Positions 1-11,880 of a DNA stretch of 64,000 nucleotides are shown here, in pieces. The DNA is taken from positions 248,001-312,000 of the forward strand of contig NZ_JAEHGC010000006.1 of NCBI RefSeq assembly GCF_016107705.1, given 5' to 3'. The DNA is from Neobacillus cucumis. Lineage in GTDB: Bacteria; Bacillota; Bacilli; Bacillales_B; DSM-18226. Positions within the stretch are counted from its first letter, which is position 1. The number at the start of each line of letters is the position of its first letter. A model generated the notes under the pieces. That model saw nothing but the letters and a program-made list of their open reading frames with translations, was not told where the DNA came from and ran no database searches. The position numbers were made by a program, and so were the translations under genes.

Positions 1-1
1 C

Positions 2-913
2 TATGCTAGTGGAAATATTGTTGAAGTTTTGTTTATCCTGTTTTCGCCAATATTTGTAAATAAAAAGTTTTTTTGGACTGTCACAATAGGTATAATTGGA
101 AAAGATTTATTGATAGGAGTTATATTGCAGGATATAACTGTTTTATTTCCAGTTATTATTTATATTATCTTATCATCAGTAGCTTCAATTCTATTAATTC
201 GATTCAATTCATATATAGACGCTTTAACATCTGTCCATGACGAACTTCGACAAAAAGAAAAACTAGCCGTTATTGGTCAAATGGCCGCTGCAATAGGGCA
301 TGAGATACGAAATCCTCTGTCTTCATTGAAAGGTTTTACACAATTACAAAAGGAACAGTACCCTAATACAAATGATTACTATCAAATTATGATTCAAGAA
401 ATTGACCGAATTAATTCAATTGTTAATGATTTAATGTATTTAGGCAAACCTAAGGTACTTGAATTCAAAAATTCAAGTATCGAAGAAATCATTGCCTATA
501 CATTATCGATCACTCAACACCAAGCCGAAAGACAATCAGTTGTAGTAGAAACCCTAATAGAAGGCCCCTTGCCGCCAATTGATTGCGATGCAAAGAAATT
601 AAAACAGGTATTTATTAACCTATTCAAAAATGCTATTGAAGCAATGACGGAGGGTGGAAAAATAAAAATTAATGCTAAGGTTCTAAAAGGAAAAAAAATG
701 TACGTTTCTATCCAAGATGAAGGCTGTGGCATTGCAGAAGAAGATATTCTTAATTTAGGTGACCCCTTCTTTACGACTAAAAAAGATGGAACAGGACTTG
801 GTTTAATGGTCTCAAACCAAATTATTAAAGACCATAAAGGAAGTTTTAATATTCAAAGTAATATTGGGAAAGGGACAAAGGTAGAAGTAATTCTGCCAAT
901 ATTTCAAAACTAA
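2..913 (+). CDS. Membrane sensor histidine kinase, 5' end cut by window
   Basis: The reading frame is open from base 2, so the start lies outside the window. The visible part has about three hydrophobic segments, a short linker, a HisKA-type phosphoacceptor box (motif GHEIRNPLSSLKG, as in sporulation-kinase-like enzymes) and an HATPase_c domain with N box (LFKNAIEA), G1 (DEGCGI) and G2 (GTGLGL). It should be an inner-membrane kinase feeding an unidentified response regulator. Its sensor part (SGNIVEVL, SPIFV, RFNSYI) aligns with the HD-GYP protein that follows, so the two probably sense the same kind of signal. No response regulator is adjacent. A kinase is certain; the signal is unknown. Confidence 0.9.
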   Translation, partial: YASGNIVEVLFILFSPIFVNKKFFWTVTIGIIGKDLLIGVILQDITVLFPVIIYIILSSVASILLIRFNSYIDALTSVHDELRQKEKLAVIGQMAAAIGHEIRNPLSSLKGFTQLQKEQYPNTNDYYQIMIQEIDRINSIVNDLMYLGKPKVLEFKNSSIEEIIAYTLSITQHQAERQSVVVETLIEGPLPPIDCDAKKLKQVFINLFKNAIEAMTEGGKIKINAKVLKGKKMYVSIQDEGCGIAEEDILNLGDPFFTTKKDGTGLGLMVSNQIIKDHKGSFNIQSNIGKGTKVEVILPIFQN

Positions 914-1118: not shown

Positions 1119-2300
1119 ATGAAAAAAAAAATAATAGACCCAATCATAAGTCATGAGGAAGGTCGCACTTTAAAATGGTTTATTGTTTTATTTTATATCA
1201 TATCCATTTCATATGATTTATTTTACCATGTCATTTCAATTTATAATCCTAAATTAAAATATGAAACGCCGGACGTGTTAGGATTATGGATTTATTTATT
1301 CATGTTTGCCTTAATTCCAATTGCTATTTACTTATATAAAAAACAAAAACAACATCTAATAAAATATGTTTATTTTATTTCTTATACTTCAATTTCTTTA
1401 ATAAATGATGTGATTTCCTTTTTTGGTAAACCAGAACTTTATAAAAGTGGAAATGCTGTTGAAATTTTTTGGCTTTTACTATCACCAATATTTGTTAGCA
1501 CCTCTTTTTTTAAAGTAGTTACGGTAGGATTACTATTAAAATACATTATTTCAGGACTAATTATTAAAACACCATTTGTTTTATTAGGAATATTACTAAT
1601 TGCCATTTTTGCAGTTTTTTCTTACATTATCTTAAATAGGTTTCAATCCTATGTTACTGCAATCAAAACATCTTACGATCAACAATTAATAGGTATTGTT
1701 AAGGGGGTAATTGCTACCCTTGAACTCAAAGACCCTTATACAAGAGGGCATAGTGAGCGGGTCGCAAGTTATGCACTAGAACTTGCAAAAGTAAGTGGAA
1801 GGTTTTCAAAAGATGAGCTGAAAGCTTTTAACTATGCTTGTTTATTACATGATATTGGTAAAATTCATATCCCTGATCATATACTAACGAAATCTGAAAC
1901 TTTAACTAAAGAAGAATATGAAATTATTAAGTCACATACGGTTGTTGGTGCGGATGCGGTATCAAAGGTTGTAGGGTTTAAAGACAGTATCGAAGTGATA
2001 CGCTCGCATCATGAAAGATGGGATGGGAAGGGATATCCAGAACAATTAAAGGGTGAAGAAATTCCGTATCTTGCCCGGATAACCTCAATTGCCGATGCCT
2101 TTGATGCAATGACTTCTACGAGATCTTACAGGGCAGCATTATCTATTGAAGAAGCATATAAACGGATTTTAGAAGGGAAAGGTTCACAATTTGATCCTGA
2201 ATTGGTAGAGGAATTTAAAAAAATCTTACCTCTATGGAGAACCATCCATGATAAAGCAAATAACGAAGATGGCTTCACAAGTATTAACATAAATGAATAA
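1119..2300 (+). CDS. HD-GYP domain protein with multi-pass membrane sensor
   Basis: This 393-residue protein has five or six predicted membrane segments (about residues 18-185) followed by an HD-GYP phosphohydrolase domain. The HD pair is at H244-D245 (LLHDIGKIHIPD) and the HHxxxxGxGYP signature at about 297-307 (HHERWDGKGYPE), so the catalytic residues look intact. Members of this family hydrolyse cyclic di-GMP or related nucleotides. The sensor half (SGNAVEIF, SPIFV, RFQSYV) is paralogous to that of the kinase upstream. A GAGGT ribosome site precedes the ATG. The gene ends only 25 bp before the 19-residue peptide gene with no terminator between, so co-transcription is likely. Confidence 0.9.
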   Translation: MKKKIIDPIISHEEGRTLKWFIVLFYIISISYDLFYHVISIYNPKLKYETPDVLGLWIYLFMFALIPIAIYLYKKQKQHLIKYVYFISYTSISLINDVISFFGKPELYKSGNAVEIFWLLLSPIFVSTSFFKVVTVGLLLKYIISGLIIKTPFVLLGILLIAIFAVFSYIILNRFQSYVTAIKTSYDQQLIGIVKGVIATLELKDPYTRGHSERVASYALELAKVSGRFSKDELKAFNYACLLHDIGKIHIPDHILTKSETLTKEEYEIIKSHTVVGADAVSKVVGFKDSIEVIRSHHERWDGKGYPEQLKGEEIPYLARITSIADAFDAMTSTRSYRAALSIEEAYKRILEGKGSQFDPELVEEFKKILPLWRTIHDKANNEDGFTSININE

Positions 2301-2325
2301 GTGATTTTAAGGAAGGGGTGAATTT

Positions 2326-2385
2326 ATGAAAATTCGCAAACTAAAACAAATTAAGGTCACTTGCTGGTGGTGTTTTTGGATGTAA
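2326..2385 (+). CDS. 19-residue Trp/Cys-rich peptide, candidate precursor
   Basis: A very short ORF encodes MKIRKLKQIKVTCWWCFWM. It has an excellent ribosome site (AAGGAAGGGGTG, about six bases before the ATG). The first ten residues carry five Lys/Arg and the end is a hydrophobic CWWCFWM block with a CxxC pair. It lies 25 bp after the HD-GYP gene and 68 bp before a membrane metalloprotease with a PqqD-like N-terminus. A basic head and hydrophobic tail next to an M50 protease recall short hydrophobic pheromones processed by Eep-type proteases, and the PqqD-like domain recalls RiPP recognition. No radical SAM enzyme is adjacent. Translation is inferred from the ribosome site; function is unknown. 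Confidence 0.6.
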   Translation: MKIRKLKQIKVTCWWCFWM

Positions 2386-2453
2386 GAAAAACGGGGTGCT
2401 TGCTATTAAGCTATGCATCCTTTTTTAATAGATTAAAAATAAAGGGTGTTAAA

Positions 2454-3638
2454 ATGAGCATTTCCTATACTTCCTTTCTTAAATTGGCAGCAATTGAAAT
2501 TCACAAGGATAAAAAACATTATATTGTCGAAGATCAAGCTTCAGGTGAGTTTTATGAAATGACAGAGATTTGTATTGATGCGATTCATATAATTAGTCAG
2601 GGAATACCGTTAGGAGAAATCGAGAATCAACTTCGCGTGAAATATCCTAATGAAGACGTGGACCTGATTGAATTTGCTGACCAGTTAATTTCATTAAATC
2701 TAATAGCAGAAATTAACGGCGTAAAAATTGAGTGTAATCAAAGGGAAAAAGAAGATTTAGGATTTCTATGGATTCCCTCCATAATTGGGAGAATCTTTTT
2801 CAATCGGTATGCTTATATTGTTTATTCGTTTTTATTTTTTGTTAATATCATTCTTTTAATCATAAATCCTTCTTTGTTCCCGCATTATAAAGATTTATTC
2901 GTTCTTGACTCGATGTCTTTAATTTTACCGCTGTTATTTGTACTCAGGTCTCTTCTTGTTTTAATTCATGAATTTGGACATATTATGGCATTACGTTCTT
3001 ATAATCTGCCTGCAAAAATAAATGTGGGACATCGATTATTTCTTTTAGTTTTGGAAACAGATATGTCCACAGTATGGAAATTACCAGCAAATGATCGAAA
3101 TAAGTTATTTTTGGCAGGTATCTGTTTTGATACGGTTATCCTATTTTTTGCTTTAGCAGGTCAAATGTTTTTTGCTCCCATTTCAGGGTTTTTCCTAAGC
3201 CTAATGAAAATTGTTGTTTTAGATATCTTTTTTAGAATGGTGTATCAATGCTGTATTTACATGAAAACAGATTTTTATTACCTTATTGAGAATTGTTCGG
3301 GCTGCTATAATTTGATGGAAAATGCTCAAGGGCTGCTAAGGGGCCTTATACCGTTTGGAAAATCACTTACCACTGGTGAAATCCTTTTTGAAAGCGAAAA
3401 AAAGACTGTAATCGGCTATTCCATTTTATATTTTATAGGGGTCGGTTTAACTGTATTTTTATATATTTTTTATTTCTTTCCGGAATTGTTTTATTCGATA
3501 AAGGAAGTAATCCCAGGCTTTAAAACATTCCCTTCAAGTATTAGCTTTTGGGATTCGACTCTCTTCATCCTACAGATTGTATTGTTCTTTTACCTGCTCA
3601 TCAATTCCTGGAGGGGAAAATACCTTCAAAAATCATAA
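2454..3638 (+). CDS. PqqD-like domain / M50 membrane zinc metalloprotease
   Basis: The protein is 394 residues from the ATG at 2454, which follows AAAGGGTG; a longer reading from 2361 would overlap the peptide gene. Residues 1-90 resemble a PqqD-type RiPP recognition domain (short strands, then winged helix: FYEMTEICIDAIHII). The rest has about six hydrophobic segments with an HEFGH zinc motif at residues 172-176 inside the membrane. A later KTDFYYL may supply the third ligand, as in 'putative peptide zinc metalloprotease' proteins. It probably cleaves or exports a small peptide in the membrane. The peptide immediately upstream is the obvious substrate candidate. Family assignment is confident; substrate is inferred. 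Confidence 0.8.
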   Translation: MSISYTSFLKLAAIEIHKDKKHYIVEDQASGEFYEMTEICIDAIHIISQGIPLGEIENQLRVKYPNEDVDLIEFADQLISLNLIAEINGVKIECNQREKEDLGFLWIPSIIGRIFFNRYAYIVYSFLFFVNIILLIINPSLFPHYKDLFVLDSMSLILPLLFVLRSLLVLIHEFGHIMALRSYNLPAKINVGHRLFLLVLETDMSTVWKLPANDRNKLFLAGICFDTVILFFALAGQMFFAPISGFFLSLMKIVVLDIFFRMVYQCCIYMKTDFYYLIENCSGCYNLMENAQGLLRGLIPFGKSLTTGEILFESEKKTVIGYSILYFIGVGLTVFLYIFYFFPELFYSIKEVIPGFKTFPSSISFWDSTLFILQIVLFFYLLINSWRGKYLQKS

Positions 3639-3682
3639 TTGTGACAGACTTTTGTCAAAATCCATATTTCTAAGGGTTTTTT

Positions 3683-3706
3683 CCCCCGAGGATGGGGGAG
3701 TTCCCC
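3683..3706 (+). promoter_or_regulatory. Alternative hairpins in molybdoenzyme operon leader
   Basis: The run CCCCC (3683-3687) can pair with GGGGG (3694-3698), which can instead pair with CCCC (3703-3706). The two hairpins exclude each other and lie just before the terminator-like stem at 3716-3762. This is visible in sequence only; function as a switch is a guess. Confidence 0.3.
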
Positions 3707-3715
3707 TATATTTGT

Positions 3716-3773
3716 AACACTAACGTTTTTCTTACAATAAGGTAAGACAAAACGTTAGTGTTATTTTTTTTTT
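3716..3773 (+). terminator. Strong hairpin with T-tract just before a ribosome site
   Basis: A perfect 14-bp stem (AACACTAACGTTTT with AAAACGTTAGTGTT) encloses a smaller stem (CTTAC/GTAAG) and is followed by a run of ten T. The AGGAGGA ribosome site of the next gene begins at the very end of the T run. It can simply end the protease transcript. However, no room remains downstream for a promoter, so the molybdoenzyme operon must be transcribed through it, which suggests attenuation or antitermination. Confidence 0.75.
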
Positions 3774-3787
3774 AGGAGGAGCTTGAA

Positions 3788-4870
3788 ATGGAAGCGAAAC
3801 TAGTAGCAAGTAAAAAACAGGAACGCTCGGTCAATGATGCGTTTGCATCCCATTTTGCGAAATCAGTCTTTTTAACTGTCGTCGGACTAGCGATTTTAAC
3901 CTTTATCGGAACAAGAATGTTTACCCATATTGACTTAAATCTATACGGATACATGGTGGGAACCCTTGTCTTTGTCGGTGGCTTTTTCTATCGATTTATT
4001 GCCTGGGGCGAAAGACCGCCAACCAAAATTATCATTAAAAAAGGTTTAAAACTGCTTTTTAGAAAAAGCACAGCGAAAACTGCAGTCAGTCATTTAGCGA
4101 TTTACGATTTTATCCGGAATCGGGGAATTTACCGATGGGTGCAACATATCTTAATTGGCTGGGGCTGTGTGCTTGCGTGTCTTGTGACCTTCCCGCTCGT
4201 ATTTAGCTGGATGTACTTTACGATGGAAGACAACGGCTATTATAATATTGTGCTTTTCGGAATGAATGTCATGAAGGTTCCGGCTGAAGGGATTATCGCC
4301 TTTTTCTCTTATAACGCACTGAATATTGCGGCCATCATGGTCATTTCAGGTGTTTGCATGGCGCTTTACCGCCGTTTAAAAAACATGCAGGCAAGAGCCG
4401 AGCAAAAATTCATGTACGATTTCTTACCGCTTTACCTATTATTGTTTATTTCGATTACAGGTCTGTTATTAACCTTTCAGAACATCGTATTACATGGCTG
4501 GATGCAGCCGCAAATGTCCTTAATCCACCAATTTTCAGTGATTATCACATTAATCTATTTACCATTCGGAAAGCTTGCCCATATTCCTTTCCGTCCAATG
4601 AGCGTTTTTGCAAGAAATTACCGAGAACATTATGGAGAACAGCATATGAAAGAATGTAAAGTGTGCGGAGATCATTTTGTTTCAGTTGAACAATCAAACG
4701 ATGTCATTCAAGTTTTAGGTGTCAATGAAATCGAATTTAATATGGAAGACGGTTTTAATCTTGCTGAATTGTGCCTGCCATGCCGCAGAAAATACCGCAT
4801 TGCAAGATTCTCAGGATTCCCAACCCACCAAGTGAAGGTCAAGGAGGCAAACCAGAATGCAAAGGGATAA
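3788..4870 (+). CDS. NarI/DsrM-like cytochrome b membrane subunit
   Basis: This 360-residue protein has about six membrane segments between residues 26 and 275 with histidines in or at the edges of helices (WVQHILIGWG, LIHQFSVIITLIYLPFGKLAH), as in quinol-oxidising b-type cytochrome subunits of NarI/DsrM/HdrE type. The soluble tail has two CxxC pairs (CKVC and CLPC, about 45 residues apart), which could bind zinc or an iron-sulfur centre. It starts an operon and overlaps the molybdoenzyme gene by 14 bp. By position it should pass electrons from menaquinol to the ferredoxin and molybdoenzyme. Start: ATG after AGGAGGA. Heme binding is inferred. Confidence 0.7.
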   Translation: MEAKLVASKKQERSVNDAFASHFAKSVFLTVVGLAILTFIGTRMFTHIDLNLYGYMVGTLVFVGGFFYRFIAWGERPPTKIIIKKGLKLLFRKSTAKTAVSHLAIYDFIRNRGIYRWVQHILIGWGCVLACLVTFPLVFSWMYFTMEDNGYYNIVLFGMNVMKVPAEGIIAFFSYNALNIAAIMVISGVCMALYRRLKNMQARAEQKFMYDFLPLYLLLFISITGLLLTFQNIVLHGWMQPQMSLIHQFSVIITLIYLPFGKLAHIPFRPMSVFARNYREHYGEQHMKECKVCGDHFVSVEQSNDVIQVLGVNEIEFNMEDGFNLAELCLPCRRKYRIARFSGFPTHQVKVKEANQNAKG

Positions 4871-7025
4871 GTTTTTTAGAGAAATTGAAAATGTACGGCA
4901 TCCAAACGAAACGTTAATAAAAACACATTGTGCTTATTGTGGAATGCAATGTGGAATGAATTTACGTGTAAATACAAAGACCAACAAAATCATAGGGGTA
5001 GAACCTCGTTATGACTGGCCGGTAAATGTTGGTAAAATGTGTCCGAAGGGAGTAACTGCTTATCAACAAACGAATCACACGGATCGAATCTTAAAACCAT
5101 TAATTCGTGATGATGCTTCCTTAAAAGGAACACAAGAAGGCTTTCGCGAAGCGACTTGGGAAGAAGCATATGACCTGATTGTGAAGAAGTTTACCGAACT
5201 GCAAGGAAAGTATGGAAAAGATACATTATCCGTCTTTAGCGGTGTATCGATGACAAATGAAAAATGTTATTTAACAGGAAAGTTTGCAAGGGTTGCCCTT
5301 CAAACTAGATATATCGATTATAACGGACGTTTCTGTATGTCCAGTGCAGCCGGTGGATTCTTACGTTCCTTCGGAGTGGACCGTGGTTCAACATTACCAT
5401 GGACCGATCTCCATGAAACAGATTGCTTGTTCATTGCCGGAAGTAATACAGCTGAATGTCATCCAACCTCGATGTTCCGTGTCTGGCATGTACAGGAAAG
5501 AGGCGGCTACTTGATTGTGGCTGACCCTCGTGAAACACCAATTGCCAGAAGAGCAGATGTTCACTTAGATTTACGTCCAGGAACAGACTTAGCACTGGCG
5601 AATGGAATTTTAAATCTACTGATTCAAAATGGTTATGCCGATGAAGAATTTGTTAACAACCATACCAATGGTTTTGAAGAAACAAAAGAATTAGTTAAAG
5701 AGTTTACTCCTGAATATACAAGTCAAATTACTGGTGTTGCAAAAGAAAAGATTATCCGTGCCGCTGAAATTTACGGCAAAGCACCAAATGCTATCGTAAT
5801 GTTCGCGCGTGGAATCGAACAGCAGCATAAGGGAGTCGACAATGTTTCAGGTTACACCAACATGGCGCTTGTAACAGGAAAAATTGGCCGTCCAAAATCA
5901 GGTGTTGCAACGTTTACTGGTCAAGGAAATGGTCAGGGTGGCCGCGAACATGGTCAAAAATCAGACTTATTGCCGGGATATCGTAAGCTAACCAATCCGA
6001 AGCATGTGGAAGAAGTATGTCAGGTATGGGGCATTACCCCTGATGAAATGCCGAAGCCAGGGGTTTCAGCAGTGGAAATGTTTCAATTAATGGAGCAAAA
6101 AGAAATTCGTGCCCTATACTTGCTTTGTTCGAACCCTGCCGTTTCTGCTCCAAATCAAAACTTTATTCGAAAAGCGTTAATGAGCCTGGATTTCATGGTT
6201 TGTGCTGATTTCTACTTATCTGAATCAGCAGAATATGCGGACGTCGTCCTTCCTTCTGTCACATGGTCAGAAGATGAAGGAACGGTAACCAACCTTGAAG
6301 GACGGATTATTAAAATTAATAAAGCACAAGAGCCAATCGGTGAATCAAAGCCGGACTGGCAAATGCAAGTGGAGTTGGCTGAAAAATTAGGTAGAGGGAA
6401 GTATTTCTCTCATCTGAAAACCGCTAGAGATGTTGCAGATGAATTCCGTTTAGCTTCAAAAGGCGGCTATGCGGACTATTACGGAGCAACATGGGATAAA
6501 ATCGACAAACAAGATGGTGTTTTCTGGCCTTGCCGAGATGAAAAGGATCCTGGTACACCACATATGTTCTTAGATAAAAAGTTTTTCCACCCAGACGGAA
6601 AGGCAAAAATTTGTGCCCTGCCATACCGTCCACCTGCTGAAGAGCCAGATGAAAAATATCCGTTACGCTTAACAACAGGACGTGTTGTTTTCCATTACCT
6701 ATCAGGTAATCAAACGAGAAGAATTCAATTCTTACGCGATATGTGCCCAGAGCCATATGTGGAGGTCCATCCTGAAACAGCAGCAAAATATAATATTGAA
6801 CATGAAGAATATGTCCGCCTCTTTACCCGTAGAGGTAAGGCTGAATATAAAGTAAAAATCACAGAAGCCATTCGAAAAGATACGGTGTTTGTTCCTTATC
6901 ATTTTGGACACGATAAATCTATCAATCTATTAACAATTGATGCACTTGATCCAATCTCCCGCATGCCGGAGTTTAAAGCATGTGCAGCACAAATCGAAAA
7001 ACTAGAAATGAAGAAGGTGCAGTAA
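4857..7025 (+). CDS. Molybdopterin oxidoreductase, NapA/NasC-type catalytic subunit
   Basis: The 722-residue protein belongs to the bis-MGD (DMSO reductase) superfamily. An N-terminal [4Fe-4S] motif has C25, C28, C32 and C62 (HCAYCGMQC, MCPKG). The likely molybdenum ligand is C160 in GRFCMSSAAGG, the cysteine type found in Nap, Nas and Fdh enzymes. C-terminal MGD-binding segments (LTTGRVVFHYLSGNQTRR) are present. There is no Tat signal, so it acts in the cytoplasm. Gene order with a cytochrome b-like subunit, four-cluster ferredoxin and Rieske protein suggests a quinol-linked reductase, and the Nre cluster nearby favours nitrate or another oxyanion. Formate dehydrogenase-like activity cannot be excluded. 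Confidence 0.85.
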   Translation: MQRDKFFREIENVRHPNETLIKTHCAYCGMQCGMNLRVNTKTNKIIGVEPRYDWPVNVGKMCPKGVTAYQQTNHTDRILKPLIRDDASLKGTQEGFREATWEEAYDLIVKKFTELQGKYGKDTLSVFSGVSMTNEKCYLTGKFARVALQTRYIDYNGRFCMSSAAGGFLRSFGVDRGSTLPWTDLHETDCLFIAGSNTAECHPTSMFRVWHVQERGGYLIVADPRETPIARRADVHLDLRPGTDLALANGILNLLIQNGYADEEFVNNHTNGFEETKELVKEFTPEYTSQITGVAKEKIIRAAEIYGKAPNAIVMFARGIEQQHKGVDNVSGYTNMALVTGKIGRPKSGVATFTGQGNGQGGREHGQKSDLLPGYRKLTNPKHVEEVCQVWGITPDEMPKPGVSAVEMFQLMEQKEIRALYLLCSNPAVSAPNQNFIRKALMSLDFMVCADFYLSESAEYADVVLPSVTWSEDEGTVTNLEGRIIKINKAQEPIGESKPDWQMQVELAEKLGRGKYFSHLKTARDVADEFRLASKGGYADYYGATWDKIDKQDGVFWPCRDEKDPGTPHMFLDKKFFHPDGKAKICALPYRPPAEEPDEKYPLRLTTGRVVFHYLSGNQTRRIQFLRDMCPEPYVEVHPETAAKYNIEHEEYVRLFTRRGKAEYKVKITEAIRKDTVFVPYHFGHDKSINLLTIDALDPISRMPEFKACAAQIEKLEMKKVQ

Positions 7026-7586
7026 ATGAAAAAGAGGTTGTATTTAGAACTTGAAAACTGTATAGGATGCCGATCCTGTTTAGCGGCTTGTACACAGTGC
7101 GGCGGGCATGAACAACGCAATCGAAACTATGTTTACGATGTGAATCCGCTAGTCAATCGTCAAACGATGCCTCTTATGTGCCTTCACTGTGTAAATCCGG
7201 CATGTGCGAGAAGCTGTCCAGCACAGGCCATTCAAATTCATGAAACTGGTGCCGTGCTTTCGGCCCTTGTGGAAAAGTGTATCGGCTGCCAGAACTGTAC
7301 GATTGCTTGTCCGTATGGAATACCAAAGTTTGATACAGAGCAAAATTTAATGTATAAATGCGATCTTTGTATCGACCGGACGAAGGATGGGATTCCGCCA
7401 ATGTGTGCTAGTGTCTGCCCATCGAATACATTGCAATGGCTGACAGATGAAGAAATTGAAGCAAAACAAAAGCAATTTAATTTAGATAACGGTAAATGGG
7501 TAACAAGCATGCCTTATTTAGAAGGCGAAACAAATGTAAGAGTGAATCTCCCTGGTATCTTGCAGGGTGTCACGAAACTGTTTTAG
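7026..7586 (+). CDS. Four-cluster [4Fe-4S] electron-transfer subunit
   Basis: This 186-residue ferredoxin of the DmsB/NrfC/NarH-like family has four cysteine groups: CIGCRSCLAAC, CLHCVNPACARSC, CIGCQNCTIAC and CDLC...CASVC. These are enough for four [4Fe-4S] clusters. No export signal is present. It begins directly after the stop of the molybdoenzyme gene and should carry electrons between the cytochrome b-like subunit and the catalytic subunit in the cytoplasm. Translational coupling with its neighbours supports a single complex. Confidence 0.88.
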   Translation: MKKRLYLELENCIGCRSCLAACTQCGGHEQRNRNYVYDVNPLVNRQTMPLMCLHCVNPACARSCPAQAIQIHETGAVLSALVEKCIGCQNCTIACPYGIPKFDTEQNLMYKCDLCIDRTKDGIPPMCASVCPSNTLQWLTDEEIEAKQKQFNLDNGKWVTSMPYLEGETNVRVNLPGILQGVTKLF

Positions 7587-7597
7587 GAGGGATTAAC

Positions 7598-8122
7598 ATG
7601 AATAATAAAAATAATAAAATCCCGTTTAATGAAGATAATTACACTCATAATATAAATCGTAATAATGAGAGAAAGCTTGACCGCCGCGGCTTTATGAAGA
7701 TGCTTGCGGGGGCAGCAGGAGTATTTGCAGTTTCATCCCTCCCTTGGGGTGCTTTAGCTGCTAAAGAATTAACGGGTCTTAGTGATAAAAAATATCCAAA
7801 GCATAAAATCGCTGACCTACAGTCATTGCCGGTAGGGGATGCAGTAGACTTTGCCTTCCCGGGCGAGCACGATAGTGCGATTTTAATTAGGCTTTCAGAA
7901 AATAAATTTGTAGCTTACCAAAATGCTTGTACCCACTTACGCTGCCCTGTTTTTTGGAAAAAAGACGAGGGAGAAATGATCTGCCCATGCCACCACGGGA
8001 AATTTGATGTGAAAACAGGTGAACCGATTGCGGGACCACCGAGACGTCCGCTTCCTGAAATTCATGTGAAAGTTGAGAACGGCGCTGTCTATGCCGTGGG
8101 GGTGAAACGTTATGAAGCGTAG
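7598..8122 (+). CDS. Tat-exported Rieske [2Fe-2S] protein
   Basis: The ATG at 7598 follows GGAGGGATTAAC and gives 174 residues. A twin-arginine signal (DRRGFMKMLAGAAGVFA) lies near residues 28-45, followed by a Rieske fold with both ligand boxes (CTHLRCP and CPCHHGKFD, about residues 110-140). The protein should face the outside of the membrane, anchored by its uncleaved signal, while the molybdoenzyme stays inside. That topology implies it links to the quinol-oxidising side of the complex or to another exported redox partner. It overlaps the next gene by 11 bp. Confidence 0.88.
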   Translation: MNNKNNKIPFNEDNYTHNINRNNERKLDRRGFMKMLAGAAGVFAVSSLPWGALAAKELTGLSDKKYPKHKIADLQSLPVGDAVDFAFPGEHDSAILIRLSENKFVAYQNACTHLRCPVFWKKDEGEMICPCHHGKFDVKTGEPIAGPPRRPLPEIHVKVENGAVYAVGVKRYEA

Positions 8123-8303
8123 TTACGTACCAGTTGCACTCTTGCTTGCTGTCTTAATGTTAAATATTATCTTTACCCAATACATGGTCCATCAATATTT
8201 TTATGAAAAGTACACAAATACCATTATTGCTGCGGTCATCAATATTATTTTATTTCCAGTAGCACTTATCATCTACAAAAAAGGTGTGAAGGTCAATGAC
8301 TAG
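8112..8303 (+). CDS. Small two-helix membrane protein
   Basis: A 63-residue protein with two hydrophobic helices (residues 6-22 and 35-55) joined by a short loop. It overlaps the Rieske gene upstream and the next ORF by 8 bp, so it belongs to the same transcript. I do not recognise a family. It may be a small accessory subunit that stabilises the membrane part of the complex. Confidence 0.65.
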   Translation: MKRSYVPVALLLAVLMLNIIFTQYMVHQYFYEKYTNTIIAAVINIILFPVALIIYKKGVKVND

Positions 8304-8607
8304 TGAAACGTATATTGATTTTTGTTTTATTCGGTCAGAATCAGGCGGTTTCGCTAAGGAAATAGACCAGATTTTAAAAGAAACTTTTGCGAATAAACGA
8401 TTGAATTGGTTTCTTGAAGAAAAAACAATGGACGAGGCTGAAATGGTTGTTGCAGAGATAAAAGGAATGAGTGATTGGGGCTCTGAAGAAGAAACAATTA
8501 TGTTTCTCGAGGAGAATGCCGGGGAGAAATTTTGGGAGTATCTGCAAGGATACAAGATGTTCATCTATCCGGCAAAGAGAGGATGTAATAGCTGTGGAGT
8601 CCATTAA
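8296..8607 (+). CDS. Hypothetical operon protein with C-terminal CxxC
   Basis: A 103-residue acidic soluble protein of unknown family, with a CNSC pair close to the C-terminus (GCNSCGVH). It overlaps the genes on both sides, so it is translated with the molybdoenzyme operon. A dedicated maturation or redox-accessory role fits the position but nothing in the sequence proves it. It is not recognisably NarJ/TorD-like. Confidence 0.6.
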   Translation: MTSETYIDFCFIRSESGGFAKEIDQILKETFANKRLNWFLEEKTMDEAEMVVAEIKGMSDWGSEEETIMFLEENAGEKFWEYLQGYKMFIYPAKRGCNSCGVH

Positions 8608-8875
8608 TTTAGAGGATCTAAAACGATTTACCGGCGGGCCGGTTGAAATTACGATTCGTGATGCAGAGGGTGGGGATCAAGCACCAACTGTTAACAAAAC
8701 GATAAAAAAAGTGCAGGCATGCCCTGATGGCACACATATCCGCTTTTATTTTGATGATTATTATTTTTTGGCAGTACCACTAGCAAGCGATGTTATTGAA
8801 ACGGAAACCGAATGGTCCGCCTTTGATCCGGAAAGCGGTCTTCATTATATAGTAAAAAAAGTTCAGACTCTCTAA
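8594..8875 (+). CDS. Hypothetical last gene of the molybdoenzyme operon
   Basis: From the GTG at 8594 (after AGAGGA, overlapping the previous gene by 14 bp) this encodes 93 residues: VESINLEDLKRFTGGPVEI through KKVQTL. It is soluble, probably mostly beta-strand. A longer reading from 8471 would lie inside the preceding gene and looks spurious. No family recognised. The short spacing suggests it works with the complex encoded upstream. Confidence 0.6.
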   Translation: MESINLEDLKRFTGGPVEITIRDAEGGDQAPTVNKTIKKVQACPDGTHIRFYFDDYYFLAVPLASDVIETETEWSAFDPESGLHYIVKKVQTL

Positions 8876-8890
8876 AGTGTCTGGCTTTTT
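8864..8890 (+). terminator. Probable terminator of the molybdoenzyme operon
   Basis: A short stem (CAGAC/GTCTG) starting inside the last codons is followed by GCTTTTTT. The stem is weak, so confidence is moderate. Confidence 0.45.
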
Positions 8891-8917
8891 TACTAATAGA
8901 CAGTGCTAATTGTAATT

Positions 8918-9013
8918 GTTGTTGATTGGAGCGGAGGGCGCGAGACTACAGCGCCGAGGAGGCTCCCCGAACCGCCCGCGGAAAGCGAAGCGACTGGAGC
9001 GGAAATCAACAAC
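8918..9013. repeat. Interspersed GC-rich repeat, copy 1
   Basis: A 96-bp element much richer in GC than its surroundings is bounded by the inverted ends GTTGTTGATT and AATCAACAAC. It shares the core GAGGAGGCTCCCCGAACCGC and the edge TTGATTGGAGCGGA with the element at 38037-38173, which lies in the opposite orientation. This type of dispersed intergenic element is familiar from Bacillus genomes. Confidence 0.75.
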
Positions 9014-9050
9014 TAAGTTTAATCCAAAAGGGGTTTAGGAGGGTTGATGA

Positions 9051-9707
9051 ATGACAATTTTACCGTCAAAAGAGGGGATTAGCTCCTACATTATTCACTC
9101 CCAAGAGGAGGAAATTAAACGAATTGCTTTAGAGCTCCATGAGGGGGTTGGCCAAAATCTATATAGTATTTTAACAGGATTACAGTTTGTTGAATCTGGT
9201 ACAGAGCAACCGGCTATGAAGCATTATCTTCGTGAAATGTCTCAGCTTATCGAAAAAACCATCCAAGAAATTAGGCTGCTTTCAGTAGAATTGCATCCTC
9301 CTACCTTAACAACCCTTGGTTTACTTCCCGCCATTAAGAGTTATATTAAGCTGTATACTTCAACATTTGGTATTCTTGTTGACCTGGAATCAATAGGAGA
9401 AGAAAAACAAATTCCCGAGCGGCAAAATATCGCAGTTTTCCGGGTTTGCCAGGAAGCTCTGGCCAATATTGCGAAGTATGCCGATACCTCCAATGTGAAG
9501 ATGAATTTTATTTGGAAAGAGACGGAATTAACCATAACGATTCACGATTTTGGTAAGGGATTTCAACCGGAGGAACATGAAATAACAAGCCCATTATCCG
9601 GGCTTGCAGCGATGAAAGAAAGAATGCTTCTTACTGGCGGACAGTGTTCAATTTCCTCTAAAATAGGAGAAGGAACCTCGATAGAAATATCTCTTCCCTT
9701 GAAATAA
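9051..9707 (+). CDS. Soluble HisKA_3 sensor kinase of the Nre cluster
   Basis: The 218-residue protein has no membrane segment and no PAS or GAF domain. It starts almost directly with the HisKA_3 dimerisation and phosphoacceptor region (ALELHEGVGQNLYSILTGLQ, His near residue 30), then HATPase_c (CQEALANIAKYAD; G box HDFGKGF). It is like the transmitter part of NreB/DegS/NarX. A GGAGGG site precedes the ATG. The response regulator gene follows after 21 bp. With no sensor domain it may rely on the GAF protein, or form a pair with the PAS kinase encoded downstream. Confidence 0.85.
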   Translation: MTILPSKEGISSYIIHSQEEEIKRIALELHEGVGQNLYSILTGLQFVESGTEQPAMKHYLREMSQLIEKTIQEIRLLSVELHPPTLTTLGLLPAIKSYIKLYTSTFGILVDLESIGEEKQIPERQNIAVFRVCQEALANIAKYADTSNVKMNFIWKETELTITIHDFGKGFQPEEHEITSPLSGLAAMKERMLLTGGQCSISSKIGEGTSIEISLPLK

Positions 9708-9728
9708 AGGGACAAAGGGGAGTTAGTT

Positions 9729-10382
9729 TTGATAAAAATCCTATTGGTTGATGATCACGCGGTTGTAAGAATGGGTCTGAAGATGCTCCTTAATACCAAT
9801 CCGATGATGGAAGTAATTGGGGAGGCTTCGGAAGGAAACGAAGGAATAAAGAAGGCATTAAGGCTAAAGCCGGATGTAGTGGTCATGGACTTAAGTATGC
9901 CCCATGGTAAAGATGGGCTTACTGCCACCACCGAGCTCAAAAAGGAAATGCCAACGATCAATATTTTGATTTTAACTATGCATGATGATGAGGAGTATCT
10001 GTTCCGGGCGATTCAGGCAGGTGCATCCGGATGTATTTTAAAAAGTGCACCCCATGATGAATTAATGGCTGCGATTGAATCCGTTGCAGCTGGTGATGCC
10101 TATCTTCACCCGGCAGCTACAAAACGGTTAATGGAAGAATATTTGACAGGAATGAAGCATGACAGTTCAGATACTTATAATCTTTTATCGGAACGGGAAA
10201 AAGAAGTCCTCACCCTCATAGCGAAAGGGTACTCAAACAAGGAAATCGCCGAGCAGCTGGTGATTAGTGTTAAAACGGTTGAAACCCATAAAGGGAACCT
10301 GATGGAAAAGCTGCAAATGAAAACCCGGCCAGAGCTTGTTGAATATGCGGTTAAAAAGGGGTTATTAGGGTATGGTTTTTAA
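9729..10382 (+). CDS. nreC: NarL/NreC-family response regulator
   Basis: A 217-residue regulator with a receiver domain (residues 1-120; acidic pair DD near residue 8, phosphoacceptor D in VVMDLSMP, K in LKSAP) and a LuxR-type HTH (LSEREKEVLTLIAKGYSNKEIA). The start is a TTG preceded by AAAGGGGAG. It sits between two kinases and a GAF sensor, matching NreC, which in Staphylococcus controls nitrate and nitrite reductase genes. It probably regulates the molybdoenzyme operon upstream, but no target site is proved here. Confidence 0.85.
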   Translation: MIKILLVDDHAVVRMGLKMLLNTNPMMEVIGEASEGNEGIKKALRLKPDVVVMDLSMPHGKDGLTATTELKKEMPTINILILTMHDDEEYLFRAIQAGASGCILKSAPHDELMAAIESVAAGDAYLHPAATKRLMEEYLTGMKHDSSDTYNLLSEREKEVLTLIAKGYSNKEIAEQLVISVKTVETHKGNLMEKLQMKTRPELVEYAVKKGLLGYGF

Positions 10383-10397
10383 GGAGAAGCGCCACAG

Positions 10398-10850
10398 ATG
10401 ACGAAATTAAGAGAATTACAGGCAGTTATTGAAATATGTAATCAATTGAAAGCTGCAGTAAATTGTGAGTTTGTGGGGCTTGCCTTTCAAAATGAAATTG
10501 GCCCGGATGTTCGTTGGCATTATGTTTCAGGTAATTTGAATGATAAATATGAACGTATCACCGTTCGTTTTGGGAAGGGAATCGCCGGAAAAATTATTTC
10601 GAGCGGAAGTGCGATGATGCTTCGAAATTTTCCGAAGGATATCATTGGGAAGGTAACAGACTATCCGATTATGCTGGCTGAAAAACTTTTATCCGCATAT
10701 GCGGTTCCACTATTTTTTCATTCTGTCCCTAAAGGGGTATTGCTGATTGGCAATAGGGCAGCACATCTTTTTACCGAACAGGATCAAGAATTGGTAAAGG
10801 ATGCTGCTGAAGCTCTGGAGCAGATTTTAAAAGGGCATACATTACTTTAA
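10398..10850 (+). CDS. nreA: GAF-domain protein, NreA-like nitrate sensor
   Basis: A 150-residue single-domain protein with a GAF fold ([28 protein letters not shown] through [17 protein letters not shown]). NreA of Staphylococcus carnosus is a GAF protein of similar size that binds nitrate and inhibits NreB autophosphorylation when nitrate is absent. Gene order between the response regulator and the PAS kinase supports the same role. The bound ligand is inferred from family and context, not from visible residues. Confidence 0.7.
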
Positions 10851-10863
10851 GGAGGGACCAGAA

Positions 10864-11880
10864 ATGGAAAGAGAAATGCAGCAGATTAAGAATGAACTTT
10901 TAGACTATAAATTTGCTCTTGACGCGTCATCAATTGTAGCGATAACGGATTCCCACGGGATTATTACATATGTGAATGATCAATTTTGCTTGATATCAAA
11001 ATACTCAAGGGAAGAATTATTGGGGCAGGATCATCGGATTATTAACTCCGGATATCATTCAAGGGAGTTTTTTAAAAATATGTGGCGGACGATTGGTTCC
11101 GGTGAGGTCTGGAAGGGGGAAATTCGCAATCGCGCTAAGGATGGAACCCATTATTGGATGGATACAACGATTGTCCCATTTTTAAATGAGAAGGGTAAAC
11201 CTTATCAATATGTTGCAATCCGGTATGAAATCACGGAAAGAAAGCGCGTTGAGCAGGAATTGCAAAAAATGATGACGACCATCATTGATGTCCAGGAAGA
11301 AGAGCGGAAGCGGTTATCAAGAAATTTACATGACGGCATTGGTCAAAATCTTTATAGTCATTTGATTACGATTAATCGGTTGCTTAATGAGCAGGACCAC
11401 CCTCTGCTTCAACAGATGCAACAGGAGGCAACGCAGTTAATTGAGGAAATTCGTGAAATCTCCTGGGAGCTTCGACCATCTGTATTGGATGACCTTGGAT
11501 TGGTTCCGGCGATTCGTTCTTTTCTTTCTCGTTATTCAGAGAACTATAATATTGATGTCTTTTTTGAATGTGTGTTGAACAAAAGGTTGCCGATCAGTAT
11601 TGAATTAACGGTCTATCGGATTATTCAAGAGGCATTAACCAATATCCGCAAATATGCTGATGTTGCTCAAGCAACTGTCACGATAAGGGAAATTGATGAA
11701 CTTGTTAGGGTAATGATTGAAGATAAGGGAATAGGCTTTGATGAAGACACAGTCCAGCGGGGGGTTGGTCTTTTCAGCATGGACGAGCGTGCCCGGGCGG
11801 TTAGCGGGGGCCTATCTATTGTTTCTGAGCCAGGAAAGGGTACGAAAATTATTTTTGAGGTACCTGTTTCTAGAGTTTGA
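10864..11880 (+). CDS. nreB: PAS-HisKA_3 sensor kinase, NreB-like
   Basis: The 338-residue cytoplasmic kinase has a PAS domain with PAC motif (about residues 10-130, ending [12 protein letters not shown]), HisKA_3 with [17 protein letters not shown] near residue 155, and HATPase_c ([22 protein letters not shown]). In NreB of Staphylococcus the PAS domain carries four cysteines that bind an oxygen-labile [4Fe-4S] cluster. Here only one cysteine is visible in the PAS region, so this protein cannot sense oxygen that way and may bind another ligand. It starts 13 bp after the GAF gene. Confidence 0.8.

Follow-up and report, generated by a model that had tools for sequence, protein, structure and literature searches.

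A conserved CWWC micro-peptide encoded between a MASE12-HD-GYP protein and an RRE-M50 protease in Neobacillus cucumis and its relatives: a probable peptide signalling module

The short hydrophobic pheromones that are trimmed by the M50 protease Eep (SHP, ComS/XIP and cCF10) derive from precursors of about 20 residues with a basic N-terminus and a hydrophobic end, and act through the cytosolic receptors Rgg and PrgX; XIP contains a WW pair. Eep itself is, to our knowledge, a general protease that lacks a recognition element (RRE) of the kind found in the biosynthesis of ribosomally synthesized and post-translationally modified peptides (RiPPs). Here we describe a module in a 64,000-nucleotide stretch of Neobacillus cucumis (contig NZ_JAEHGC010000006.1, positions 248,001 to 312,000 of the forward strand; hereafter the window), in which a 19-residue peptide with the motif CWWC is encoded between a protein with a MASE12 membrane sensor and an HD-GYP domain, and an intramembrane site-2-type (S2P, M50) protease with an N-terminal RRE domain. 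In contrast to the Eep-dependent pheromones, the linked receptor candidate here is a membrane HD-GYP enzyme.

The epipeptide and pearlin pathways have modifying enzymes and larger precursors. In both, as is proposed here, a membrane M50 protease acts on a ribosomal peptide (YydF/EpeX-EpeP and TglG/TmoG, respectively), and the M50 protein EpeP is thought, in a qualified statement, both to cleave and to export its peptide; the word PqqD is absent from this review (PMC10885120, part). The ThiF-like (TLAT) RiPPs, including enterofaecin (EnfA/EnfB), microcin C (MccA/MccB), pantocin A and IndA/IndF, have very short precursors, as in the CWWC family. EnfA has 21 residues, a Trp-rich WWIVI end and the leader motif (V/I)RKA (PMC12250964, part); the CWWC leader also has I-R-K near its start, a likeness to the described EnfA motif that is a lead only. 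The CWWC locus differs in having no adjoining ThiF gene, the RRE being carried by the protease instead. By word search, PMC12250964 mentions no metalloprotease or intramembrane protease, and PMC12150305 no M50 enzyme, its protease being an M16 enzyme. The daptide intramembrane metalloprotease (NCBIfam NF041824) shows weak similarity in the core (E 5e-4 for the window protein and 9.5e-7 for a distant homologue), with scores of 19 and 28 bits, respectively, against a cut-off of 300. Among the matches listed in open-access PubMed Central, no paper describes this peptide, bacterial CWWC peptides or an RRE-M50 protein with an HD-GYP partner, though others may exist. Two elements are already known, each on its own: tiny RiPPs of the ThiF type (enterofaecin, IndA) and the M50 proteases of RiPP pathways. 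What is new is the fusion of RRE and M50 in combination with a CWWC precursor that has no ThiF enzyme and is linked to an HD-GYP sensor; it perhaps represents a new class of signalling.

We propose, with a probability of roughly 0.6, that the locus is a self-contained, RiPP-like micro-pheromone signalling module, in which the RRE-M50 protease releases the CWWC-tail part of the peptide and MASE12 sensors read it into cyclic di-GMP (c-di-GMP). The evidence comes from comparison of loci that were collected rather than randomly drawn, with those differing in a 300-base stretch of the protease gene counted as distinct, and from genome samples with one genome per species (L and G numbers denote loci and genomes). 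The CWWC peptide is a real, conserved family. An open reading frame (ORF) for it lies upstream of the protease in 145/145 distinct loci of the orthologous branch (branch A), 144 of them found by pattern and one (L219, MNIRKLKKVKVTCWWCILFPKG) read by eye. The peptide in L168 (G115), counted as present, is 1.9 kb from the protease, and in L147 (G154) the contig ends right after the peptide. A fixed basic leader, M-K-I-R-K-L-K-K-V/I-K-x-T (for example MKIRKLKQIKVT), is followed by a nearly invariant CWWC (exact in 135/144; otherwise CWIC in six, CWVC in two and CWLC in one) and a hypervariable tail, with 125 distinct tails among 144 peptides. Within the tail, position 1 is unconstrained, position 2 holds F, W or Y in 120/144 peptides, and position 3 is mostly hydrophobic. 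In 140 of the 144 sequences, the ratio of nonsynonymous to synonymous change (pN/pS) was calculated by region: leader codons 2-10 give 0.11, CWxC gives 0.02 and the first three codons of the tail give 0.79. A Shine-Dalgarno-like site precedes 142/144 of the ORFs; 16 of the picked starts are GTG or TTG, including that of L189, an internal pick with the true start further upstream. A degenerate DNA pattern for K-x-T-CWWC matched 80/193 genomes of the family and the reversed pattern 0/193; two matches, L153 (G193) and L169 (the second in G115), lack a matching leader or Shine-Dalgarno sequence and were rejected as chance hits. Separately, the protease gene of L122 (G104) has internal stop codons and its peptide is atypical (CWLC with the tail FLFTNGG), and this module may be decaying.

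A first-pass annotation, made from the window sequence alone, had described the 19-residue ORF with its near-ideal ribosome-binding site, ending 68 bp before the start codon of the protein with the HEFGH motif, and inspection of the sequence bears this out; the ORF begins 25 bp past the MASE12-HD-GYP gene. The same annotation had named, as signs against a peptide-protease partnership, homologous proteases without a conserved short ORF upstream or an ORF without codon conservation. The opposite was found on both counts, so that the partnership is strongly supported. Its treatment of the CWWCFWM end as one unit holds for CWWC, the remainder being hypervariable. It knew of no described family with this end, and no Pfam or NCBIfam model matched the CWWC and related peptides submitted.

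The annotation had also suggested a small RiPP or pheromone with no radical SAM enzyme nearby. A conserved leader, a distinct core and the codon statistics identify a ribosomal precursor of the RiPP kind, and a pheromone-like role is the best reading of it. It is no more than a candidate for a RiPP in the strict sense: its cysteines or tryptophans may be modified (by disulfide, metal or crosslink), perhaps by an unlinked enzyme, but no modifying enzyme is present among the commonly shared neighbour genes and no RRE-ThiF protein in 18 CWWC genomes, where all matches to the RRE-ThiF protein P0121 of the distant relatives begin at query residue 91 at least and lack the RRE part; the locus has no RRE-ThiF adenylyltransferase as found with TLAT RiPPs. 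By Pfam, radical SAM had no match in the nine ORFs of 3788-11877, nor in the protease, HD-GYP and kinase proteins, in agreement with the annotation.

In the AlphaFold2 model of the protease, residues 1-90, which the first-pass annotation had called PqqD-like, match winged-helix RRE domains solved with leader peptides bound, and the core has the S2P fold with the HExxH zinc motif inside a transmembrane helix. By this model the protein is an RRE domain fused to a site-2 (M50) protease, and the RRE domain is predicted to bind the peptide leader. With the Pfam model PF02163 the window protease scores 12.7 bits (gathering score 27.2), although some close homologues carry this family in a precomputed table; a PDB sequence search and PADLOC gave no match for the protease. 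A 425-residue ORF from TTG 2361 is an upstream extension of the protease, and M1 of the 2454 start is nearly invariant among 55 aligned relatives. The window protease shares 97% identity with its Neobacillus sp. M.A.Huq-85 counterpart and 91% with that of G001, the nearest of the genomes compared. At E 1e-5, with distant homologues included, matches were found in 108/193 genomes of the GTDB-style family, 59/397 of the order and 35/398 of the class, with named carriers including Neobacillus, Fredinandcohnia, Gracilibacillus and Ornithinibacillus; the gene set is conserved in soil bacteria related to Bacillus. The matches form two identity bands, branch A orthologues at about 35-91% and branch B homologues at 22-31%, the sole match outside them being a 55-residue fragment in G067 (38%). 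Branch A is one clade with a support of 0.81 in a FastTree analysis of 46 A proteins (the window protein and 45 random others) and 44 B proteins (4 of the 48, of 300 residues or fewer, were left out).

The most tightly linked partner of the peptide is the MASE12-HD-GYP gene, which the first-pass annotation had passed over. It lies directly upstream of the peptide in 144/144 loci (median stop-to-start distance -1 bp, all within 91 bp), and in a clustering of neighbours at 164 loci (142 near, 22 far) it is the only constant cluster of the near set (142/142). The second commonest near-set neighbour, the protein heading a formate-dehydrogenase-like block, is present at 65 loci, and no transporter gene is found among the commonly shared neighbours. 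One far locus, L206, also has an upstream HD-GYP gene, of another make. The motifs HD.GK and HHE..DG.GYP are each present in 141/142 full-length HD-GYP relatives, and the protein matches the fold of the PA4781 HD-GYP domain (E 1.2e-11), as befits a member of the HD-GYP class. From these sequence features it is predicted to hydrolyse c-di-GMP, and is a candidate for both receptor and output. A defence role was rejected, as the weak PADLOC matches to Cas3/Cas10-type HD domains were taken to reflect no more than general likeness among HD domains.

In 72/89 loci with enough flanking sequence, the module is bordered by another MASE12 protein, a histidine kinase (65 upstream, 7 downstream). The window kinase matches HATPase_c and HisKA in Pfam, plus MASE12 over profile positions 110-164 only, and its NCBIfam scores (AtoS 245 bits, ZraS 212, sporulation kinase KinD 180) are all under the cut-off. 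In L275 (G514, contig C56), two more tandem MASE12 histidine kinases are encoded, on a contig other than that of the CWWC module.

Loci without the protease give a natural dissection of the module. MASE12 was detected above the cut-off, with no branch-A protease found, in 44 genomes of the family and order samples. In 38 of these, MASE12 always belongs to a kinase, beside which 4-7.5 kb of sequence holds no HD-GYP match and no CWWC ORF; of the other six, G110 and G069 keep the HD-GYP gene, G154 is cut by a contig end, and G017, G044 and G100 were not in the count. G110 and G069, from different genera (g1 and g14), have the kinase and HD-GYP genes with no protease match, and directly after the HD-GYP gene encode MNILKLKKLITACWWCAWLGV and MKLIRFLMLIVSCWWCLWWQP, respectively, in which the CWWC-tail core is retained; the N-terminus of MKLIRFLMLIVSCWWCLWWQP is hydrophobic and membrane-like. 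The peptide in both is followed by a T-rich, hairpin-like stretch (by eye) and then formate-dehydrogenase-like genes as in the window. Where the protease is present, 145/145 peptides have the leader motif M-x-[IV]-[RKT]-[KRP]-L (with the start of L189 corrected), against 0/2 where it is absent (p 9e-5, assuming independent loci, which strictly they are not). Loss of the protease alone thus goes with loss of the leader motif but not of the core, as if the protease were what maintains the leader and the HD-GYP side what maintains the core. Among the 144 loci, peptide and protease never occur without HD-GYP. This natural joint loss of protease and leader motif makes the leader/core split directly testable. 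The RRE-protease fusion also suggests leader recognition that serves proteolysis without a modifying enzyme. In one of the 38 kinase-only genomes (G067, L283, ~3139-3797), the kinase gene runs straight into a C-terminal remnant of the RRE-M50 gene, so the HD-GYP gene, the peptide and most of the protease were deleted as one block.

In the proposed mechanism, the precursor of about 20 residues would be made from the HD-GYP operon, and the protease would use its RRE domain to hold the basic leader MKIRKLKKxKxT in the cytosol. Docking on the RRE would bring the hydrophobic end of the peptide, CWWC and tail, to the zinc site within the membrane, and the S2P core would then cut the membrane-inserted peptide, freeing the CWWC-tail part. 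A dual role of the RRE-M50 protein, similar to the cleavage and export for which EpeP is considered responsible, would explain the absence of a transporter (PMC10885120, part). The neighbouring HD-GYP protein would sense the product through its MASE12 domain, either in the membrane or outside it, and its hydrolysis of c-di-GMP would change as a result; the nearby MASE12 histidine kinase of many genomes may sense it too. The variable tail would set peptide/receptor specificity species by species. If true, this would be a Gram-positive peptide-to-c-di-GMP route for which a single cassette of three genes supplies the protease, the ligand and the receptor, and whose control could be made species-specific by the hypervariable tail.

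Co-variation of the tail with its candidate receptor (141 of 144 loci) fits signalling and is suggestive, though not decisive. The mean tail distance between nearest neighbours was 0.43 when these were defined by MASE12, 0.48 by HD and 0.56 by the protease, and MASE12 was a better predictor of the tail than the protease in 59 and a worse one in 18 of the 141. The linear partial Mantel r was 0.22 for tail and MASE12 (reached by 0/500 permutations) and 0.09 for tail and HD (1/500). On ranks, however, the partial r is only 0.086 for MASE12 and 0.115 for HD. The candidate role as a secreted pheromone with a dedicated receptor is suggested by genetic linkage, the hypervariable tail and this receptor-side co-variation.

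The distant branch B homologues are accompanied by precursors of a similar kind. A pattern shaped after seeing examples found leader-like ORFs, 18-34 codons long, often tandem and preceded by strong ribosome sites, in 41/48 distinct branch-B loci (39 by its strict form); on the reverse strand of the same stretches, 2/48 matched the loose and 0/48 the strict form. Examples are MKIEVKKTEKLKPTFIPYGG, MKIQAKKVESVRTTAVAA and MKKIVVRKLATVTVPQLRPGT, and the tandem series include Trp-free peptides. The common start MKI..KK..K.K.T points to a single type of leader. A ThiF match lies within 5 kb in 44/48 of the loci; for P0121, the one RRE-ThiF protein tested, MccB ranks first among solved relatives and PaaA lower. 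A helix-turn-helix (HTH) plus tetratricopeptide repeat (TPR) regulator of the peptide-receptor type is found in 7/48 loci (phmmer; two confirmed by Pfam). Because annotation readily misses genes of some 20 codons, whole peptide systems of one class may lie hidden behind 'hypothetical' M50 proteins. A wider and decidedly tentative picture is that of a new signalling architecture, in which a CWWC micro-pheromone that differs from species to species is freed by an intramembrane protease under RRE guidance. It would be read directly by the membrane HD-GYP phosphodiesterase and by a sister MASE12 kinase (which may feed the sporulation phosphorelay), so that a ribosomal peptide of some 20 codons would set c-di-GMP in Neobacillus and relatives. 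This would be one branch of a much larger, almost unannotated RRE-M50 world of ~20-residue, often tandem precursors in the class.

Branch-B loci vary in their make-up. L255 has a large tandem array of precursors, nine leader-like ORFs of ~20 residues (MKIQAKKVEMVRTTAAAGGTSV and variants) that lie upstream of the M50 gene at a distance of about 3.9 to 1.4 kb, with two ThiF matches and one RRE-M50 gene. L202, L203 and L204 have three copies of MKKIVVRKLxTVxVPQLRPGT, followed by a ThiF gene, a substrate-binding-protein-like gene, the RRE-M50 gene, a gene that by eye resembles a transporter, and an HTH-TPR regulator; the contig of L204 (198 kb) corresponds in length and position to a Priestia koreensis plasmid. 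In L190, L191 and L193, four to five tandem ORFs of the MKIEVKKTEKLKPT... type are found, the first about 0.7 kb after an HTH+TPR regulator that resembles peptide-pheromone receptors. The ThiF-less L257, L259, L260 and L261 encode peptides of the MKKxxVxKTExVKLT... type, some with Cys in the tail, adjoining the RRE-M50 gene and then an ORF of ~730-790 residues.

The main rival to the micro-pheromone proposal, which we consider unlikely, is that the peptide stays in the membrane as a microprotein that forms a subunit of the MASE12-HD-GYP protein or regulates it (CWWC could, for instance, serve as a redox or metal switch), with RRE-M50 as its turnover protease. The near-invariance of CWWC, with CWI/V/LC as the remainder, would suit such a subunit, as would the two genomes that keep peptide and HD-GYP without the protease (one with a membrane-like N-terminus), the constant presence of HD-GYP wherever peptide and protease occur and the lack of a commonly shared transporter gene. 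A tail as variable as that observed is, however, unexpected for a subunit, a turnover protease would need neither a dedicated RRE nor a strongly selected leader, and the distant relatives, with their tandem precursors and ThiF enzymes, look like producers of secreted RiPP products.

It is quite improbable that the peptide is a small RiPP with an antimicrobial or toxin-like action, which RRE-M50 would process and export in the way proposed for EpeP and the epipeptide, with HD-GYP as a linked regulator or immunity partner. M50 proteases do act in the epipeptide and pearlin pathways (PMC10885120, part), ThiF relatives make products of the microcin C, pantocin and enterofaecin type (PMC12250964, part), and the core is hypervariable. 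Against this, neither a modifying enzyme nor a transporter is commonly shared, and the constant pairing with HD-GYP, often joined by a sensor kinase, fits signalling better. Nor does the module look mobile: phages gave no match, and all 27 plasmid records are below 60% identity (the best full-length ones about 26%), so that a mobile element was rejected too.

The tandem Trp codons and a terminator-like hairpin (-6 kcal/mol or lower) in 113/138 peptide-protease gaps (138 of 144 loci, with gaps of 40-160 bp only) could be taken for a Trp/Cys attenuator, in which the ORF is a leader peptide that controls the protease through the gap terminator. The hairpin itself is real (mean -12.8 kcal/mol, against -1.6 for mononucleotide shuffles), but attenuation as the main function was rejected and is largely refuted: it is the amino acids of the leader that are conserved, synonymous changes being free, the 5' arm of the terminator pairs with its own ORF no better than with the ORFs of other loci (-7.60 and -7.76 kcal/mol, p 0.18, 111 loci), the ORF persists in genomes that have lost the protease and at one locus is 1.9 kb distant from it, and Trp-free leader-like peptides occur in tandem in the distant relatives. 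That the ORF is spurious and the downstream gene an ordinary M50 protease, as the lack of a family model might suggest, is refuted by its conservation at all 145 loci, its codon statistics and its ribosome sites.

Table 1. Features of the CWWC module and its upstream kinase in the window
Feature	Position	Strand	Evidence or remark
MASE12 sensor histidine kinase	1..913	+	5' end cut by window start
MASE12-HD-GYP protein (N-terminal membrane sensor and HD-GYP phosphodiesterase domain)	1119..2300	+	Pfam MASE12 5.9e-30, HD_5 3.4e-37
Peptide ribosome-binding site ggaaggggtg	2311..2320	+	5 bases to ATG
CWWC micro-peptide precursor MKIRKLKQIKVTCWWCFWM, then stop, 19 aa	2326..2385	+	family conservation, codon statistics
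Intrinsic-terminator-like hairpin and T run, peptide/protease gap	2393..2426	+	-12.3 kcal/mol
RRE-M50 (intramembrane site-2-type protease with N-terminal RiPP-recognition-element domain), 394 aa	2454..3638	+	
RRE domain (leader-binding, predicted), protease residues 1-90	2454..2723	+	AlphaFold2 model fold match
HEFGH zinc/catalytic motif within IHEFGH, H172-H176	2967..2981	+	H172, E173, G175 and H176 invariant in 55 aligned sequences

Rfam gave no match within the window. Directly downstream of the module, 3788-8122 encodes the formate-dehydrogenase-like block (molybdopterin oxidoreductase, 4Fe-4S protein and Rieske protein). This block is common to ~60/142 near loci, and being so widely shared, its link to the module is probably one of synteny rather than function. 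Further on, 9051-11880 encodes two HisKA_3 histidine kinases, a LuxR-type response regulator and a GAF protein, a regulator set that is perhaps involved in oxygen or nitrate sensing.
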